NCBI GenBank assembly: GCA_026708055.1
Contig: JAPOVS010000019.1
Coordinates: forward strand, 126,532-190,531
Origin: a bacterium
Lineage (GTDB): Bacteria > Actinomycetota > Acidimicrobiia > Acidimicrobiales > CATQHL01
Direction of reading: 5' to 3'
Length of the DNA: 64,000 nucleotides
Both the position numbers and the translations under genes were made by a program. The notes under the pieces are model-generated. The model was not told the origin of the DNA. It saw only the letters and a program-made list of their open reading frames with translations, and searched no databases. This document shows, one piece after another, positions 26,678 to 41,031 of this stretch. Each line of letters begins with the position of its first letter. The stretch's first letter is position 1.

Positions 26678-28474
26678 TCACGACGGGACTCGGCCGATGA
26701 ACCAGCGCGAGCTGTCGACATCCGACCCGTCGAAGACCTCGACACGGGCCAGCACGAAGTCGTCGCCGACGGCGAGTTCGATTCGCACGAGTCCGTCGGC
26801 GGTGTCGATGCCGAAGGCGTCGTCGGCGGTCTGCCATCCCCAACCCTCGCCGTCGGCCGACCATCCGATCCAGACGGCGGGCTCGTCGAACGAGTCGAGA
26901 TCGATACCGGGTCGTGGCCGCGCCGTGGTGACGATTCCGGCGGGGCCCACAGCCAGAATCCTGCCGGGTCCGAGACCGTCGAAGACCGCGACGGGTCTCG
27001 GTTGCTCGCCACTGCCGGAGCGCAGGATGCCGTAGGTGAAGTTGACATCTCTGCTGTACCAGGTCGTGCCGCTGCCGTCGTGGGCGGCGTCGAGGTACCC
27101 GAAGCCCAGCCGGGTCTCGCTCCACGCGCGGCCGTCCGCAGACGTGACCTCCAGCATCCCATCACGGCCGCTGATGGTGACCGAGAAGCCGTCGGGCGCG
27201 CCCATGGCCGAGGTCATCCATCCGGCGTACTCGGCGACCTGCTCGGCGCCGGAGCCCTCGTCCACGAGCAACCGGACTCGATCGGACAGCAGGAATTGAG
27301 TTCCTTCACCGCTCCTGGTGTCCGGCGCCGCGCACGGCCACTGTTCGTCGAGCCCCGGAATCAAGTCGTCGTCGGCCACTTCAACCGTCTCGGGGTCAGA
27401 GGAGTCGCCGAAGTGGACGACGAGCGTGCCGGCGCCGGCGGAGCGCCATTCGAGGATCGACTCCGTGTCCGGGACGTAGCCGCGTGCGACCAACTGCGCG
27501 GGCACATCGAGATAGATGTCGCTCGCAACAACCACGACGATGCGGTCGTCGGACGTCAGTACTGCTCGCACCGACAACCGTTCGAGGCAGGACGGCGGGT
27601 CCGGCGCCGAGCCGTCGATGTTGAGCGCCACCTCGGTCCAGGAAGCGCCCTCGTCGTCGGAGAAAAACGCCCGAGGAGGGTGCCCAAGGTCGGAGTTGCC
27701 CCCTTCACCCAGCAGCCAGCGGTCCCCCGAGATATCGACGACGTCGGGGGAGACGGCACTGGGCGTGTTGATCGCCGCCCAGTGAGTGCCGTCGGCTGTG
27801 ACGATGACCTTGTCGATTGGAGTTTCCCAGACGTAGTGCGGGACCATGCCGCGGGCCACGATTCGTCCGTCGCCGACCGACTGCATGCCGTATACGGCCA
27901 CGAACTCAAGGCTCGTGTCCAAGTCCACCTCGATCCACGTCAGTGTGGGCCCGGTGGACACTTCGTCGGGTGTCGGGGGCTCGGAAGCGGGTGCCGCCGA
28001 TGCCGGGTCGGCATCCCTCGCTCCATCATCCGGGTCGGTCACGACCGGGTCCTCAGGTCGCTCGTTGTCGCTCGCTCCTTTCTCGCCGGACTCAATTTGT
28101 CGGGCGACGGCCAGATCGGAGTCGCCCGTTTCCGCCGCGTCCTGGCTGGCTGAAGAAGCAGGTTCTGCCCCCGCCGGTTCGGCGCGCTCGGGCACCGAGG
28201 ACGGCGCTCTCACCTGGATGCCGCCGCCGTCGCGGCCGAGCGTGCTCCAGGCGACGAGGCCGCCGGCGATCAGAGCCGCCGCCGCTGTGACGCCCACCAG
28301 CGTGTACCGGAGCCTGCGGGCGCTCGCTGCCGCGGCGGCTCGTTCGACGACGCCGCCCACAGGGGGGATGCGGTCCAGAGACTCCGAGCGCCTGCCGATT
28401 GCCGCACCCAGGTCGGCGCCGAGGGTCCGATCGTCGCCGTCGGCGTGTCTGTCGATGTGCCGGTTCTGGTTCAT
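26678..28474 (-). CDS. Single-pass membrane protein with external Asp-box domain; ECF sigma partner 1
   Basis: 598 aa; ATG overlaps the sigma gene stop by 4 nt. Layout: cytoplasmic N-terminus of ~56 residues, one membrane helix at ~57-78 (TLVGVTAAAALIAGGLVAW), a Pro/Ala/Glu-rich spacer to ~175, then an extracellular domain. That domain has Asp-box-like S/T-x-D-G-x-x-W motifs near residues 226-232, 272-279, 445-451 and 539-545, suggesting a beta-propeller. By position it should be the anti-sigma or sensor protein of the coupled ECF factor, although the cytoplasmic part shows no HxxxCxxC zinc motif. Paralogue at 29147-31333; both end RWFI-x2-VP. Confidence 0.8.
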   Translation of the reverse strand: MNQNRHIDRHADGDDRTLGADLGAAIGRRSESLDRIPPVGGVVERAAAAASARRLRYTLVGVTAAAALIAGGLVAWSTLGRDGGGIQVRAPSSVPERAEPAGAEPASSASQDAAETGDSDLAVARQIESGEKGASDNERPEDPVVTDPDDGARDADPASAAPASEPPTPDEVSTGPTLTWIEVDLDTSLEFVAVYGMQSVGDGRIVARGMVPHYVWETPIDKVIVTADGTHWAAINTPSAVSPDVVDISGDRWLLGEGGNSDLGHPPRAFFSDDEGASWTEVALNIDGSAPDPPSCLERLSVRAVLTSDDRIVVVVASDIYLDVPAQLVARGYVPDTESILEWRSAGAGTLVVHFGDSSDPETVEVADDDLIPGLDEQWPCAAPDTRSGEGTQFLLSDRVRLLVDEGSGAEQVAEYAGWMTSAMGAPDGFSVTISGRDGMLEVTSADGRAWSETRLGFGYLDAAHDGSGTTWYSRDVNFTYGILRSGSGEQPRPVAVFDGLGPGRILAVGPAGIVTTARPRPGIDLDSFDEPAVWIGWSADGEGWGWQTADDAFGIDTADGLVRIELAVGDDFVLARVEVFDGSDVDSSRWFIGRVPS

Positions 28475-28947
28475 CTGTCGATCACCTCCCGCAGTTGCGC
28501 GAGTCCTCCCGACAGGAGGCTCTTGACCGTGCCGGGGCGGATGCCCATCGTCTCGGCGATCTCCCGTTCGGACATTGCGCCGTAGTAGCGGAGCACCAGC
28601 GCCGTCTTCCTCCTCGTGGGCAGCTGCTCAAGCGCGTCCAGCAGGTAGTCCTGCTCTGCCGGGATCTGCCGTGGCCGGCCCGGTGGGATGCGGCGCCGTA
28701 CCTCCCGCCTGCGGAGTTCGCTGCGCGCGCCGTTGACGACCGCCGTGCGCAGATATCCGCCCGGGTTGTCGAGCCTGTCCCAATGCTCGAACACTTTGGC
28801 GAACGCGTCCTGCGTGATCTCCTCTGCGGACTCGGGGGTGTCCAGGAGCCCGAAGGCGAGTCGCACCATGGACAGATATTCGGCCCGGTAGAACTCCTCG
28901 AAGGCGGCGACGGTCACGCGGTCATTCAACACGCTCGCGGGAGCCAC
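28471..28947 (-). CDS. ECF-type RNA polymerase sigma factor, SigE-like, copy 1
   Basis: 158 aa from GTG 28947 (GTG 28932 or 28917 are also possible; none has a strong ribosome-binding site). Region 2 is FEEFYRAEYLSMVRLAFGLLDTPESAEEITQDAFAKVFEHWDRL with the PGGYLRTAVVNGARSELRRR promoter-melting segment. Region 4 is LEQLPTRRKTALVLRYYGAMSEREIAETMGIRPGTVKSLLS, a helix-turn-helix for the -35 element. It directs RNA polymerase to GAACC/CGTC-type promoters; one such element lies at 29008-29034, so self-activation is likely (inference). Forms an operon with the membrane Asp-box protein. Confidence 0.9.
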   Translation of the reverse strand: MAPASVLNDRVTVAAFEEFYRAEYLSMVRLAFGLLDTPESAEEITQDAFAKVFEHWDRLDNPGGYLRTAVVNGARSELRRREVRRRIPPGRPRQIPAEQDYLLDALEQLPTRRKTALVLRYYGAMSEREIAETMGIRPGTVKSLLSGGLAQLREVIDR

Positions 28948-29007
28948 GATCCGTCCAGGATCACGATCCGGCGCAGATGCCCGTTGTGAGGCCTCCCATC
29001 ACCCTTA

Positions 29008-29034
29008 CCGACGCACGACCGGAGCGTTCGGTTC
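29008..29034 (-). promoter_or_regulatory. ECF-type promoter upstream of sigma copy 1
   Basis: On the minus strand GAACC (29034-29030), a 16-nt spacer and CGTCGG (29013-29008), followed by the GGGTGATGGGAG box that also follows the promoters of copy 2. The same elements with the same spacing precede the paralogous sigma gene. The predicted transcript would have a leader of about 50-70 nt. Confidence 0.7.
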
Positions 29035-29091
29035 ATCGGACTGTCCTGATTCAGCAATCTCTGTTGGGAGGTGAGGTGTGTCGGAACGTGA

Positions 29092-29146: not shown

Positions 29147-31333
29147 CTACGGCACTTTAGCGATGAACCAGCGGGCTCTCCAGCTGCTCGGCGGCCCGGA
29201 CTGAGACTGCTCGGCATCCGGTGACTCGGCCATCGCCATCGCCTCGGCCACATCGAACGAGTTGAACCTAGCGATCACGAAATCCGACCCCACGGCGAGG
29301 GAGAACGGCGTGAGCCCCTCCCCTTCGGCCAGGCCGAACGCCTCGGCGGCGTCCTGCCAGCCCCAGCGCTCGCCGTCGGCCGACCAGCCGATCCAGATCG
29401 GCGGCATGCCGGTCGGGCCGAACAGTTCGGTGCGGGCGGTCACGAGCCGGTCGGTGTCGGGCACCATGTCCTCCTCGGTGAACCGCACGAGCTCCTCGCC
29501 GGTGTCGGGGTCGCTGAAGGCCAGCGAGACGGAACCGTCGTCCTCGGTCACCTCGCGCACGCCGTCGGGAGGTTCGGCGGAGGGCTCCAGCTCTTCGGCG
29601 GAGAACTCGTAGACGGCTGTGCCCGCGGCGAGGTCCCGGAGAGAGGCGCCCCCTGAGGCGTTGTCCAGGCGCAGCTCGTAGCCGTCCTTCTCGAAGCTCG
29701 TCACCTCGATCAGATCCCGGATGGGGTCGGGCAGCATCCATGCCGAGGTCACCACCCCGGCCGGTCCGGCCGACAGCACCCCCACCGGCTGTAACACGTC
29801 GAATACGGCCACCTGCCGCGGCTCGCCGGCGATGTCGCCGCGCCGGATCCGGTAGCCGAGCCAGTGATTCTCGCCCAGCCACACGGTGCCGCCGGGCCCG
29901 CGGGCCACTGTGGCGTATGCCTCCTCGGTGGTCCGGATCTCCGACCAGCTGCGCCCGTCGCGTGACGTGAGCCGCCGGACGCCCCCGGTGTCGGTCGCCA
30001 GCACCATGGCGAAGCCGTCGCTGGTCGCCACCGCGGACGTGGCCCACCCCTCGTAGTCGGCGACCTGCTCGGTGCCGGAGCCGTCGCCTGCCAGCACGCG
30101 GACCCGCCCCGACGCGTAGTCGTCGCAGTCGTGGAGATGCTCGGGCGTGAGCCCTAGTTCGTCCAGCGCCACTTGCAGCGTGTCGCCGTCGGTGCCGTCC
30201 CAATCGGAGGGATCGCCGAGGCGGACCGTCAGGACGTCGTCCGTGCGCCTCCATTCGACTGCCGGCGTCCCCTCAGGGATCAGGCCCCGCTCGGCGAGCA
30301 GCGCCTCGATGTCCAGGAGTCGGCGCAGGGACACCAGCACGACGACGCGGTCGCCCGAGATCAGCACGTCCTGCACCGCCGACTGTTCGACGCAGTGTGG
30401 GGGCAGCCCCGCCTCGGAGCGGATGTCTAGGTTCGGTTCGCTCCAGGACTCGCCGCCGTCGCCGGAGACCAGGACCCGACCGGGATCATCGGCTGCGGTC
30501 GATCCTTGCGAAGCGATCGCCCAGCCGTTCCCGTCGACCGACAGGCGGTACGGGAAGACGCCGTCGGGAAGTCCGGCGGCCCTCCAGGTGATGCCGTCGC
30601 CGGTGATCGCGACCCGGTCGCCGCTCTCGCCCCGGACGCGGGCGACGATCCGTCCGTCGCCCAGGGCCTGCAGCTCTACGGAGTCCGTCGGTCTGCCGCC
30701 GAGGTCTACTGACACCTCGGTCCACTCCAGGGCGGGACCGCTCGAGAGGTCCTCCGGCGCCGGGAAGTTCGACATGCCGCCGGGTTCCGGTGCCGTGTCG
30801 GTCTCCGGATCGGTCGGATCCGCCGACGGTGCCTCCGCTCCGGGCGCTTCGGCTCCTCCAGTGTCGGCGGCCGCTCCGGCGGGTTGCGCCGACGCTGCCT
30901 CCGGTCCGGCGGGCTCGGCTGGTCCGGCGTTGGCTGGTCCGGCGTTGGCGGCAGGTCCGCGTCCGGCGGGTGCGGTCTCAGCGGGTCCGCCGCCGCTGGC
31001 AGGTCCGGCGTCCTCTGCCCGGCCGCCGTCGGCGGGCGTCTGCTCCGCCGGTTCGGCCGCGGTCGGCCCGGTCACCACCCGTTCGCCGTCGCTGCCCAGC
31101 GTGTTCCAGGCCGCCAGGCCGGCGGCGATGAGGGCCGCTGCGGCGGCGATGCTCACCGCCCCGTGCCGGACCCGCCTGGCCTTCGCACGGGCTGCGGCCC
31201 GCTCGGCGATGTTGGTCACCGGCGGTGGAGCAATCGGGGAGTCGGTCTCCCTGGCGACGGCTTCGCCGAGGGCGGCACCGAGCGCTTCTTTGCCGTCACC
31301 GGGTCGCCGGCCGTTTTGCCGGTCGTCGTTCAT
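29147..31333 (-). CDS. Single-pass membrane protein with external Asp-box domain; ECF sigma partner 2
   Basis: 728 aa, ATG overlapping the sigma gene stop (ATGA). Same plan as the paralogue: cytoplasmic N-terminus, membrane helix at ~58-77 (HGAVSIAAAAALIAAGLAAW), a very long Ala/Gly/Pro-rich spacer (residues ~85-200) that could cross the cell wall, then Asp-box motifs TGDGITW, SGDGGESW, SRDGRSW and SADGERW. It has extra sequence relative to copy 1, mainly in the spacer and before the last Asp-box (LEPSAEPPDGVREVTEDDG). Likely an envelope sensor controlling its sigma factor. The absence of a recognisable zinc anti-sigma domain leaves the mechanism open. Confidence 0.8.
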   Translation of the reverse strand: MNDDRQNGRRPGDGKEALGAALGEAVARETDSPIAPPPVTNIAERAAARAKARRVRHGAVSIAAAAALIAAGLAAWNTLGSDGERVVTGPTAAEPAEQTPADGGRAEDAGPASGGGPAETAPAGRGPAANAGPANAGPAEPAGPEAASAQPAGAAADTGGAEAPGAEAPSADPTDPETDTAPEPGGMSNFPAPEDLSSGPALEWTEVSVDLGGRPTDSVELQALGDGRIVARVRGESGDRVAITGDGITWRAAGLPDGVFPYRLSVDGNGWAIASQGSTAADDPGRVLVSGDGGESWSEPNLDIRSEAGLPPHCVEQSAVQDVLISGDRVVVLVSLRRLLDIEALLAERGLIPEGTPAVEWRRTDDVLTVRLGDPSDWDGTDGDTLQVALDELGLTPEHLHDCDDYASGRVRVLAGDGSGTEQVADYEGWATSAVATSDGFAMVLATDTGGVRRLTSRDGRSWSEIRTTEEAYATVARGPGGTVWLGENHWLGYRIRRGDIAGEPRQVAVFDVLQPVGVLSAGPAGVVTSAWMLPDPIRDLIEVTSFEKDGYELRLDNASGGASLRDLAAGTAVYEFSAEELEPSAEPPDGVREVTEDDGSVSLAFSDPDTGEELVRFTEEDMVPDTDRLVTARTELFGPTGMPPIWIGWSADGERWGWQDAAEAFGLAEGEGLTPFSLAVGSDFVIARFNSFDVAEAMAMAESPDAEQSQSGPPSSWRARWFIAKVP

Positions 31334-31845
31334 GGCTCGATCACCTCCCGCAGCTCCGCCAACCCTCGCGACACCAGGCTCTTGACCGTGCCGGGGCGGA
31401 CGCCCATGGTCTCGGCAGTCTCCCGCTCGGACAGGCCGGCGTAGAAGCGCAGCACCAGGGCCGTCTTCCGCTTGGGTGCGAGCCGGTCGAGGGCGTCGAG
31501 GAGGTAGTCCCGCTCCGGCGGCGCCTGCCGGGGTTGCCCCAAGCCGATCCGGCGCCGGACCTCCCGCCTACGGAGTTCGCTGCGGGCGCCGTTGACCACC
31601 GCGGTGCGCAGGTAGCCGCCCGGGGACTCCAGCCGGCCCCAGCGCTCGAACACGCGGGCGAAGGCGTCCTGAGCGATCTCCTCGGCGGACTCGGTGGCGT
31701 CGACCAACCCGCGGGCGAGCCGCACCATGGGCGCGTACTCGGTCCGGTAGAACTCATCGAAATCGACGGCGATCACGCGACCATCCAACACCCTCGGCGG
31801 GGCGGTTGCGTGTTCACCGCTGATGGCGAGGGATACTCCCATCAC
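31330..31845 (-). CDS. ECF-type RNA polymerase sigma factor, SigE-like, copy 2
   Basis: Up to 171 aa. Starts in frame are GTG 31845, ATG 31842, GTG 31791 and GTG 31776; conservation with copy 1 begins around VLDGRVIAVDFDEFYRTEY. Region 2 (LARGLVDATESAEEIAQDAFARVFERW, GGYLRTAVVNGARSELRRREVRRRI) and region 4 (LAPKRKTALVLRFYAGLSERETAETMGVRPGTVKSLVSRG) are both intact. ATG 31842 falls 8 nt after the innermost predicted -10 element, so a leaderless message is possible. Two further promoter copies lie upstream. Strongly similar to copy 1, a segmental duplication. Confidence 0.9.
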   Translation of the reverse strand: MMGVSLAISGEHATAPPRVLDGRVIAVDFDEFYRTEYAPMVRLARGLVDATESAEEIAQDAFARVFERWGRLESPGGYLRTAVVNGARSELRRREVRRRIGLGQPRQAPPERDYLLDALDRLAPKRKTALVLRFYAGLSERETAETMGVRPGTVKSLVSRGLAELREVIEP

Positions 31846-32066
31846 CCGTGACGACGCCCGAGGCGCCCGATCGGTTCCCGAACGCAGTGTCGCTGCGGAT
31901 CAGGTCGCCGCTGACGGCGAGGAATAACTCCCATCGCCTCCAACGACGCCCGAAGCCTCCGATCGGTTCCCGGATGCTGCGTCGTAGCGGCGGATCGAGT
32001 CGGCAGTCGACGGCGAGGGATACTCCCGTTGCCTCCCACGTCGCCCGAGGCGCCCGATCGGTTCCG
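31818..32066 (-). promoter_or_regulatory. Three tandem ECF-type promoters in ~93-bp repeats
   Basis: Three imperfect direct repeats (periods 92 and 95 nt). Each carries, on the minus strand, GGAACC, a 16-nt spacer and a -10: 31879-31873 with CGTCGTC 31856-31850; 31971-31965 with CGTCGTT 31948-31942; 32066-32060 with CGACGTG 32043-32037. Each -10 is followed by an RYGGGAGT box. A degenerate fourth copy may lie near 32100-32150. The remaining 32067-32278 has no gene that I can see. Confidence 0.75.
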
Positions 32067-32278
32067 CGATTCCGGACCGGGGCAGCGGTTCGAGCTGGCT
32101 GCGGCATCGTCGCTCGTCGCCGATCGATGCGTTCCAATCGTCGAGAGCCGCGGCTTGCGGTCCAATGGCGACCGCTCCGCCCTCCTGCCGCACAGACCCC
32201 CACGACCGGTGCCGAGGCCGCGAAAGCACGCGGATCCGCCAGACTGGTGCGGTACCGCACGCTCAACGAGGAGCCGTG

Positions 32279-36898: not shown

Positions 36899-37002
36899 CG
36901 CTGGATCTTCCGCCGGTCGGCGGAGTCCGGTACCGTTGATTCGCCTGCAGGCGACGGGCGCCTGCTGGGCGGAATCAGTTGCCGCCAGTCGGGAAAGAGC
37001 AA

Positions 37003-37995
37003 ATGGCCAGGACCGAGGGCTACGTGCCGGACGGCATCCCGATGGAGCCGCCCAGGTTCCTGACGCGGCCGTCGGACTCGCTGAGGGCGATCAGCAAGCT
37101 GACCAAGCTGATGCTCTGGCCCTACGGGTTGTTCTACATCGGGCTGTCGGTGGTGGTCTGGAACTACTTCACGCCTGCGTTGGCCCGCATGCAGCGCTTC
37201 GAGATCGGCTGGGTGGCGGAGATCTATGTGCGCAACCTGGTGATGGTGGCGGTATGGGTGAGCGTCATCCACTTCTGGCTCTACGTGCGCCGAGCGCAGG
37301 GTATGCGGTTCAAGTACGACGACCGATGGCTCAGCACCACCGCCCGCCGCTTCATGTGGCGCAACCAGGCGTGGGACAACGCCTTCTGGACGCTGGTCAG
37401 TGCGCCCGTCTTCTGGACCTTCTGGGAGGCGCTGCTCTACTGGTGCTACGCCAACGACTACGTCCCGCACGCCCGCTGGAGCGACGGGGCGGGCTGGGTC
37501 GTCTACCTGGTGGTGATGACGGTCTTCTCGTTCTGGCTTGTGGCCGGCTACTTCTACGTGACCCACCGGTTCCTGCACACCGGGCCCATGTACCGGTGGG
37601 CGCACTACCTGCACCACAAGAATGTCAACACCGGGCCGTGGTCGGGCCTGTCGATGCACCCCATCGAGCACCTGCTCTACTTCTCCACGCCGGTGTTCTT
37701 CCTGTTCATCCCCGCCAACCCGTTCATCATCATCGTCACGCAGATCTTCACCGGCCTCGCCCCGTCGCTCGGTCACTCCAACTTCGACCGCATCGTGACC
37801 GTCGGCGACCGCACCCTGCCTGCCGGCGACTACTTCCACGACCTGCACCACAAGTACTTCGAGTGCAACTACGGCACGCCGGTGGTCCCGGTCGACGCCT
37901 GGGTGGGCACCTGGCACGACGGCTCCCCCGAGGCCCACGAACGCATGCGAGCCCGCCGCGAGGCCGCCGGACACCTCGCCCGCAAGGGCGACTGA
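37003..37995 (+). CDS. Fatty acid/sterol hydroxylase-superfamily membrane protein, copy 1
   Basis: 330 aa from ATG 37003. A di-iron hydroxylase by its three His clusters: THRFLHT (HxxxH), HYLHHKN (HxxHH) and HDLHHKYFE (HxxHH). About four membrane helices lie in the N-terminal two thirds (YGLFYIGLSVVVWNYF, LVMVAVWVSVIHFWLYV, VYLVVMTVFSFWLVAGYFYV, YFSTPVFFLFIPANPFIIIV). The C-terminus WHDGSPEAHERMRAR is shared with the paralogue at 40054-41031. The family hydroxylates or desaturates lipids using oxygen; the substrate is not determinable. Confidence 0.88.
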   Translation: MARTEGYVPDGIPMEPPRFLTRPSDSLRAISKLTKLMLWPYGLFYIGLSVVVWNYFTPALARMQRFEIGWVAEIYVRNLVMVAVWVSVIHFWLYVRRAQGMRFKYDDRWLSTTARRFMWRNQAWDNAFWTLVSAPVFWTFWEALLYWCYANDYVPHARWSDGAGWVVYLVVMTVFSFWLVAGYFYVTHRFLHTGPMYRWAHYLHHKNVNTGPWSGLSMHPIEHLLYFSTPVFFLFIPANPFIIIVTQIFTGLAPSLGHSNFDRIVTVGDRTLPAGDYFHDLHHKYFECNYGTPVVPVDAWVGTWHDGSPEAHERMRARREAAGHLARKGD

Positions 37996-38128
37996 CCACA
38001 CCTGGCCGGCGCCGGTGTCGGGCCGACCGGTCCGGCGCACCCGTGGCCGCCACTCGGGCAGCTCCTACGCTCGGGGATGTGACCCACCCGATCTCATCGC
38101 TGCCGTTGCCGGCCGGCAGGCGGGCGGC

Positions 38129-40053: not shown

Positions 40054-41031
40054 ATGGAGCGGATCGCGGGGTACGAACCGGCGGAAGCCATCCCGATGCA
40101 GCCGCCCACGCTGCGGGGCGGCCCCAAGAAGGCGCTGCAGACCATCCGGAACCTCGTCTGGATGACGATGTGGCCCTACGGCTTCATCTACGCCGGCCTG
40201 GCGGCGCTGGTGTGGAACGTCTTCACCCCCGCCATGGAGCGCATGGAGCGGTTCTCCATCGGCTGGATCGCCGAGATCTATCTGCGCAACGTGGTGCTGC
40301 TGCTGGTCTCGGCGGGGGGTCTGCACCTCTGGCTCTACGTGCGCCGGGCCCAGGGCAAGAACTACAAGTACGACCGCCGCTGGTTGAGCAGCAAGAGCCG
40401 CCGCTTCCTCTGGGGCAGCCAGACGCGGGACAACATGTTCTGGGCGCTCACCAGCGGCGCATTCTTCTGGACCGCCTACGAGGCGCTGCTGCTGTGGGCG
40501 TACGCCAACAACCACATCGCCCGGGTGGATTGGGGTGACGGGCCGGGTTGGGTCGTCTACCTGCTTGCAATGACGGTCGTGCCGTTCTTCCTGGTCACCG
40601 GCTGGTTCTACGTGACCCATAGGCTGCTGCACACCCGTCCCCTGTACCGCTGGGCGCACTACCTGCACCACAAGAACGTGAACACCGGACCGTGGTCGGG
40701 CCTCTCCATGCACCCCCTGGAGCACCTGCTCTACTTCTCCACGGTGCTGTTCTTCATGCTCATACCAGTGAGCCCCTTCGTTGTCATCCTGACGAATCTC
40801 TTCACCGCCATGGACCCGGCGCGCGGTCACTGCGGCTTCGACCGCTTCGAGATCGGCTACGGCCGCACCATGCCCGCGGGCACTTACTACCACGACCTGC
40901 ACCACAAGTACTTCGAGTGCAACTACGGCCTGCAGGTGATTCCCATCGACGCCTGGATGGGCACCTGGCACGACGGCTCGCCCGAGGCCCACGAACGCAT
41001 GCGGGCCCGCCTGGAGGCCGTCCGGCGCTGA
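40054..41031 (+). CDS. Fatty acid/sterol hydroxylase-superfamily membrane protein, copy 2
   Basis: 325 aa from ATG 40054 with GAGGGGGA upstream. Close paralogue of the 37003-37995 protein: the same VTHRLLHT, HYLHHKN and HDLHHKYFECNYG His clusters, same helix layout, same GTWHDGSPEAHERMRAR tail. Differences concentrate in the N-terminus and the fourth helix (YFSTVLFFMLIPVSPFVVIL). It probably arose by duplication with specialisation on another lipid substrate, or the two form a heteromer (inference). Confidence 0.88.
   Translation: MERIAGYEPAEAIPMQPPTLRGGPKKALQTIRNLVWMTMWPYGFIYAGLAALVWNVFTPAMERMERFSIGWIAEIYLRNVVLLLVSAGGLHLWLYVRRAQGKNYKYDRRWLSSKSRRFLWGSQTRDNMFWALTSGAFFWTAYEALLLWAYANNHIARVDWGDGPGWVVYLLAMTVVPFFLVTGWFYVTHRLLHTRPLYRWAHYLHHKNVNTGPWSGLSMHPLEHLLYFSTVLFFMLIPVSPFVVILTNLFTAMDPARGHCGFDRFEIGYGRTMPAGTYYHDLHHKYFECNYGLQVIPIDAWMGTWHDGSPEAHERMRARLEAVRR

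Follow-up and report, generated by a model that had tools for sequence, protein, structure and literature searches.

Probable tandem triplication of a predicted leaderless self-promoter ahead of an ECF sigma gene in an uncultured marine actinobacterium

In an uncultured marine actinobacterium, an ECF sigma gene is preceded by an array of three direct repeats. The array is probably specific to this lineage and would have arisen by tandem triplication of a conserved module, a leaderless autoregulatory promoter together with its start codon, in the operon of the ECF sigma factor and its putative membrane anti-sigma. This reading draws on the sequence, its conservation, the number of copies in relatives and the reading frame. 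The window (the whole stretch of DNA that was analysed, 64 kb; G000:C19:126532-190531) belongs to a 3.9-Mb draft genome, referred to here as G000, whose nearest relatives are metagenome-assembled genomes of Acidimicrobiia. Two paralogous operons follow one another on the minus strand, each composed of an ECF sigma gene and a membrane protein gene that overlap by 4 nt, and the array is located between the first sigma operon and a divergent gene resembling those of PLP enzymes (Table 1).

Table 1. Features of the two sigma operons and of the tandem array, in window coordinates.
Feature	Position	Strand	Remarks
Tandem array, three units of 92-95 bp	31822..32099	-	Unit = upstream flank, promoter core and first codons
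Copy 1 (inner), core GGAACC-N16-CGTC	31853..31878	-	ATG 10 nt downstream; matrix score 28.1, best of the window; orthologous site in single-copy relatives
Copy 2, core	31945..31970	-	CGTC and downstream ATG (31934) retained; matrix score 23.6, second of the window
Copy 3 (outer), core	32040..32065	-	-10 now CGAC, ATG now ACG (32029); matrix score 22.6, fourth of the window
Predicted transcription start/leaderless start codon (GTG ATG)	31840..31846	-	CGTC-N10-ATG, no Shine-Dalgarno
30-codon ORF from the ATG of copy 2	31842..31934	-	TGA overlaps the sigma ATG (TGATG); read from translation, putatively expressed
ECF sigma gene, 170 aa	31330..31842	-	ATG 31842; in-frame GTG at 31845; Sigma70_r2 and Sigma70_r4_2; length and frame conserved in relatives
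Membrane protein gene, 728 aa, probable anti-sigma	29147..31333	-	Start overlaps the sigma stop (ATGA); Shine-Dalgarno GGGAGGTGATC
Single promoter site TGAACC-N16-CGTC of the paralogous operon	29010..29035	-	ATG at 28999; matrix score 23.3
Paralogous ECF sigma gene	28471..28947	-	74% identity in the core; reading frame of the conserved ATG interrupted after 12 codons
Paralogous membrane protein gene	26678..28474	-	4-nt overlap with the paralogous sigma gene; protein 41% identical to the first

A repeat search returned three direct copies of 78 nt with a 14-nt extension, 69-74% identical to one another and starting at positions 31835, 31927 and 32022, hence spaced by 92 and 95 bp. Each holds on the minus strand the GGAACC-N16-CGTC/CGAC core recognized in the preliminary description, which had also raised the prospect of the same repeats occurring at non-promoter sites. 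Genome-wide, the array is present at a single place in G000, and a dispersed repeat element is thereby ruled out. The near twin G004, a separate deposit (L045 = JAPOYM010000051.1), also carries the three-copy array, which thus cannot be an assembly slip of one genome. The RYGGGAGT box described as shared by the repeats is present in the units, but it corresponds to the start codon plus the codon after it, which were duplicated together with the promoter, and not to an additional regulatory box.

Both sigma proteins of the window contain only sigma regions 2 and 4 (Pfam Sigma70_r2 and Sigma70_r4_2) and exceed the cut-off of the sigma70-ECF model TIGR02937. Their nearest family is SigE-fam_strep (TIGR02983), of which they are not members, with 131.9 and 130.2 bits for a curated cut-off of 141.55. 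Protein length is nearly constant in relatives (167-177 aa), and codons 18-19 of the sigma gene are an in-frame GTG-TTG. ECF sigma factors are typically autoregulated through AAC and CGT boxes and have an adjacent anti-sigma partner (PMC8103513). Both target boxes, AAC at -35 and CGT at -10, are found here, and with the exception of its first G the GGAACC-N16-CGTC core is invariant in 22 sites from relatives. The longer element GGAACC/TGAACC-N16-CGTC-N10/11-ATG precedes the sigma gene in 24 distinct Acidimicrobiia relatives, with a frame open into sigma in each, a count that overstates independence since some are close kin. Sigma-gene relatives bearing the element span this genus and several other families of the order; no such site was detected in the scanned relatives L034 and L059. 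The element is predicted to be a conserved autoregulated leaderless promoter, in keeping with the self-recognised ECF-type promoter proposed earlier.

Leaderless genes, which are common in Actinobacteria, are recognizable by a -10 signal some 10 bp ahead of the start codon (PMC3160421; see also PMC9031893 for their frequency). In all of the sites, CGTC is followed after 10 or 11 nt by ATG. No Shine-Dalgarno sequence was found ahead of sigma (duplex of -3.5 to -7.8 kcal/mol); that of the next gene is strong in this genus (-21 to -23 kcal/mol). Given this spacing, the lack of a Shine-Dalgarno and the preserved frame, the most plausible reading of the inner copy is a conserved self-promoter from which the mRNA would begin at the start codon, where the preliminary description had also placed the onset of transcription. 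In distant relatives (L060-L064, L176), a similar layout is observed with other boxes, approximately GCAACA-N16-CATCGT, and a start codon about 10 nt further on, which suggests that promoter specificity changed there and that the leaderless layout stayed.

The degenerate motif with one mismatch is common (24 matches for 18 expected). A 26-column matrix was trained on 22 non-redundant sites from relatives, with G000 and its twin G004 left out, and its top four sites in the 64 kb are copy 1, copy 2, the site of the paralogous operon and copy 3, followed by a fifth site at 9.6; the matrix scans covered the window and individually selected loci. When only the hexamers are scored, copy 3 falls to 12.2 and ties for sixth because its -10 is CGAC. 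The exact GGAACC-N16-CGTC sequence occurs at 24 sites in the genome versus 14 for the reversed control, and the exact sites outside sigma operons score at most 15 and lie mostly inside long ORFs. The genome-wide search advocated as a means of defining the regulon did not deliver one: no wide regulon could be called from GGAACC-N16-CGTC in G000, where the extended leaderless form is found only at the sigma operons. Within the genus, sigma operons account for 12 occurrences of the leaderless pattern (the extra copies of G000 and G004 included); five further occurrences are located elsewhere, and the reversed control gave a single match. Scanning the class for tandem self-promoters gave matches in 40 of 395 genomes; two matches are the present array, and the remaining ones resemble coding sequence, as judged by the printed sequence alone. 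The relatives examined yielded no second sigma operon with a tandem self-promoter.

The paralogous sigma operon is likewise preceded by a single copy with the same spacing, within two bases of the 29008-29034 interval initially reported for it. Between 28961 and 28999 on the minus strand, this operon keeps the promoter and the leaderless ATG, and the frame reads MGGLTTGICAGS up to a stop after 12 codons. Either the paralogous sigma starts further down or the draft sequence contains an error; one or the other must be the case.

Comparison of repeat number among genomes, as suggested in the preliminary description, gives three copies in G000 and G004 and one in G001, G002, G005 and G007. In G001, the outer flank of the single copy corresponds to that of copy 3, and the sequence inside it to copy 1, indicating that the G000/G004 line gained two units. 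Judging from this alignment, the ancestral state is a single copy, to which two units were added locally by tandem duplication. Past the -10 and ahead of the start codon, copies 2 and 3 have changes in common (GGAGGC) that are lacking in relatives, which suggests that copy 1 was duplicated first, and then its product again. Between G004 and G000, one base differs in the array, none in the sigma gene and 4% in the neighbouring PLP-enzyme gene, and with one differing base in the array the twin gives no independent test of selection. Comparison of positions 31330-31845 with L179 confirms that the whole sigma gene is identical in the two genomes, next to a divergence of 1.3% in the membrane protein gene and 4% in the adjacent PLP-enzyme gene; recent recombination possibly accounts for this identity.

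The three copies agree in 22 of the 26 columns of the core and in 23 of the 66 outside it (Fisher p = 1.4e-5), and a best-window permutation attained the observed value in 7 of 20,000 trials. Core identity amounts to 22-25/26 between copies and 20-25/26 between species; upstream flanks share 11-22/36 positions between copies. Since the cores are as alike between copies as between species and the upstream flanks have decayed, selection is suggested to act on all three copies, retention of the cores via gene conversion between copies being an alternative. Copy 2 has both hexamers and the ATG intact and is likely to be a second active promoter. Copy 3, likely the weaker one, is degenerate at the two best-conserved places: its start codon has changed from ATG to ACG, and the T it lost from CGTC is invariant in 22/22 sites of relatives. 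These two changes, the restriction of the array to one lineage and the modest overall likeness of the copies are what would be expected if the outer copies were neutral debris of tandem duplication and only the inner copy worked, as in relatives. We grant this explanation a real but minor chance, for debris would hardly have kept its cores so much better than its flanks, about as well as between species, or left copy 2 with both hexamers and its ATG.

Other roles can be envisaged for the repeats. Copies 2 and 3 could sequester sigma-RNA polymerase as decoys or hinder transcription from the inner promoter, thereby damping the loop and setting a threshold. The cores were indeed kept while the start codon and -10 of copy 3 eroded, and transcripts from the upstream copies would traverse the inner promoter; nevertheless, copy 2 has an ATG and a frame ending on the sigma start, and three sites are few relative to RNA polymerase numbers, which makes this role rather improbable. 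Even harder to credit is that the repeated box serves a separate regulator as operator or RNA hairpin and resembles a promoter only incidentally. In copies 1 and 2 a hairpin is predicted around the AUG (z of -3.1 and -1.7) and conservation between copies extends to the N16 spacer, yet 26 sequences have no conserved hairpin (mean z of -0.38), the conserved columns are those of the ECF promoter, and spacers differ between clades. The start-codon hairpin of copies 1 and 2, which is not conserved in relatives, was rejected as a feature of the element.

In the triplication model that we favour, the pairing of sigma with the promoter, the start site, the activity of copies 2 and 3, the coupling and the anti-sigma role are the parts that we infer. 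RNA polymerase with this sigma would bind GGAACC-N16-CGTC of the inner copy and begin transcription 0-4 nt before the ATG, yielding a leaderless sigma mRNA on which the membrane protein would be translated separately from its own strong Shine-Dalgarno. Sigma freed by the membrane protein would then amplify both sigma and the membrane protein. The two extra units would have arisen by tandem duplication in the common ancestor of G000 and G004. The frame from the ATG at 31934 encodes MGVIPRRQRRPDPQRHCVREPIGRLGRRHG and its stop codon, TGA (31844-31842), overlaps the sigma ATG, an overlap that follows automatically from the 92-nt spacing and the conserved GTGATG. The mRNA of copy 2 would therefore start at its own ATG and encode a 30-codon peptide ending at TGATG on the sigma ATG, and sigma would be made from it through translational coupling or re-initiation at TGATG, the simplest route to sigma from a longer mRNA when no Shine-Dalgarno is available. 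The likely net effect would be more operon output per free sigma, i.e., a higher loop gain and dynamic range, with no sharper switch. More speculatively, and only as a tentative proposal, such tandem self-recognised leaderless modules might produce outer mRNAs translated only via the short upstream ORF, copy number and coupling might set the loop gain of the ECF factor, and array length might evolve between lineages like a tunable dial.

The downstream gene adjoins the sigma gene with a 4-nt overlap in every relative examined, and in this genus it is preceded by the Shine-Dalgarno GGGAGGTGATC. Its product consists of a cytoplasmic helical N-terminus, one predicted transmembrane segment and an extracytoplasmic beta-rich domain, and the motif LGxALGxA...IAERAAARAKAR is located in the helical N-terminal part, on the cytoplasmic side. 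Searches of Pfam and NCBIfam profiles returned neither a family match nor a known anti-sigma domain. The model of the outer domain has good local confidence and matched propeller-type folds weakly, with TM-scores of 0.25 or less when normalized by query length. From its position and layout, the membrane protein is probably the anti-sigma of the ECF sigma factor. In the third sigma operon of G001 (L058), the membrane protein has RCC1-like repeats replacing the usual outer domain, its sensor part appearing to have been swapped.

The sigma operon also encodes this likely anti-sigma, so that the positive feedback exerted by sigma is accompanied by the making of its probable inhibitor. This bears on the initial proposal that amplification of a self-recognised promoter would build a steep, possibly bistable positive-feedback switch. 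The sites do appear self-recognised, judged by their conservation, and three promoters raise loop gain, but the anti-sigma candidate is co-transcribed and each promoter is served by a sigma monomer. In a toy model in which free sigma is titrated by co-made anti-sigma, with 1, 2 or 3 promoters and six parameter sets, going from one promoter to three increased output, several-fold in most sets. The effective Hill number ranged from 1.06 to 1.68, steepness changed little in most sets (at most from 1.07 to 1.42), and no hysteresis was detected for any copy number in the six sets. In this model, extra promoters raise output without adding cooperativity, and the steep switch is accordingly regarded as quite unlikely.

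Most of these traits are familiar from autoregulated ECF sigma/anti-sigma operons, which also have two sigma domains only, an AAC -35 and a CGT -10, a self-promoter and an overlapping downstream membrane gene (PMC8103513); three tandem self-promoters, a predicted leaderless start and a putative anti-sigma set the present operon apart from them. In Streptomyces coelicolor sigR, a self-dependent promoter upstream of the ECF gene (sigRp2) leads to a product lengthened at its N-terminus, before sigma region 2 (sigma R'; PMC4921905), the nearest case of an N-extended product from a self-promoter. However, sigR has a second, constitutive promoter for a shorter isoform; here, the predicted start is at the promoter and the self-promoter exists in three copies. 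Several promoters also precede Escherichia coli rpoE, but they differ in type, P6 being described as autoregulated (PMC8103513), whereas all copies are here the same self-type element. The leaderless sigma genes sigJ of S. coelicolor (PMC3160421) and sigEp1 of M. tuberculosis (PMC4921905) share an actual or predicted onset of transcription at the start codon; neither is described as having a self-promoter in triplicate. The literature searched, which included few subscription papers, contained no account of an ECF self-promoter multiplied in tandem. As far as comparison of sequences can tell, the self-activating core is ordinary, its tripling is an unusual local variant, and a function of the extra copies is plausible.

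ECF autoregulation is usually described with one self-promoter, and here the number of promoters changed under apparent constraint. The single-copy relatives are natural controls for how the number of promoters affects feedback in an ECF loop. Moreover, self-promoter and start codon form one fused leaderless module in this clade, so that duplication of the promoter also copies start codons and creates an upstream ORF.

In one relative (L211; G006:C140, positions 270-403), the sigma gene and its promoter are deleted, and the PLP-enzyme flank runs into the last codons of sigma; the membrane protein gene then follows, and its match ends shortly before the contig end. Elsewhere in the window, two similar genes with histidine-rich motifs (37000-38000 and 40080-41020, plus strand) flank a lyase-like gene. 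They resemble membrane fatty-acid hydroxylase/sterol desaturase-type proteins, the copies of relatives cross-match at about 75-76% DNA identity, and the pair looks like a local gene duplication.
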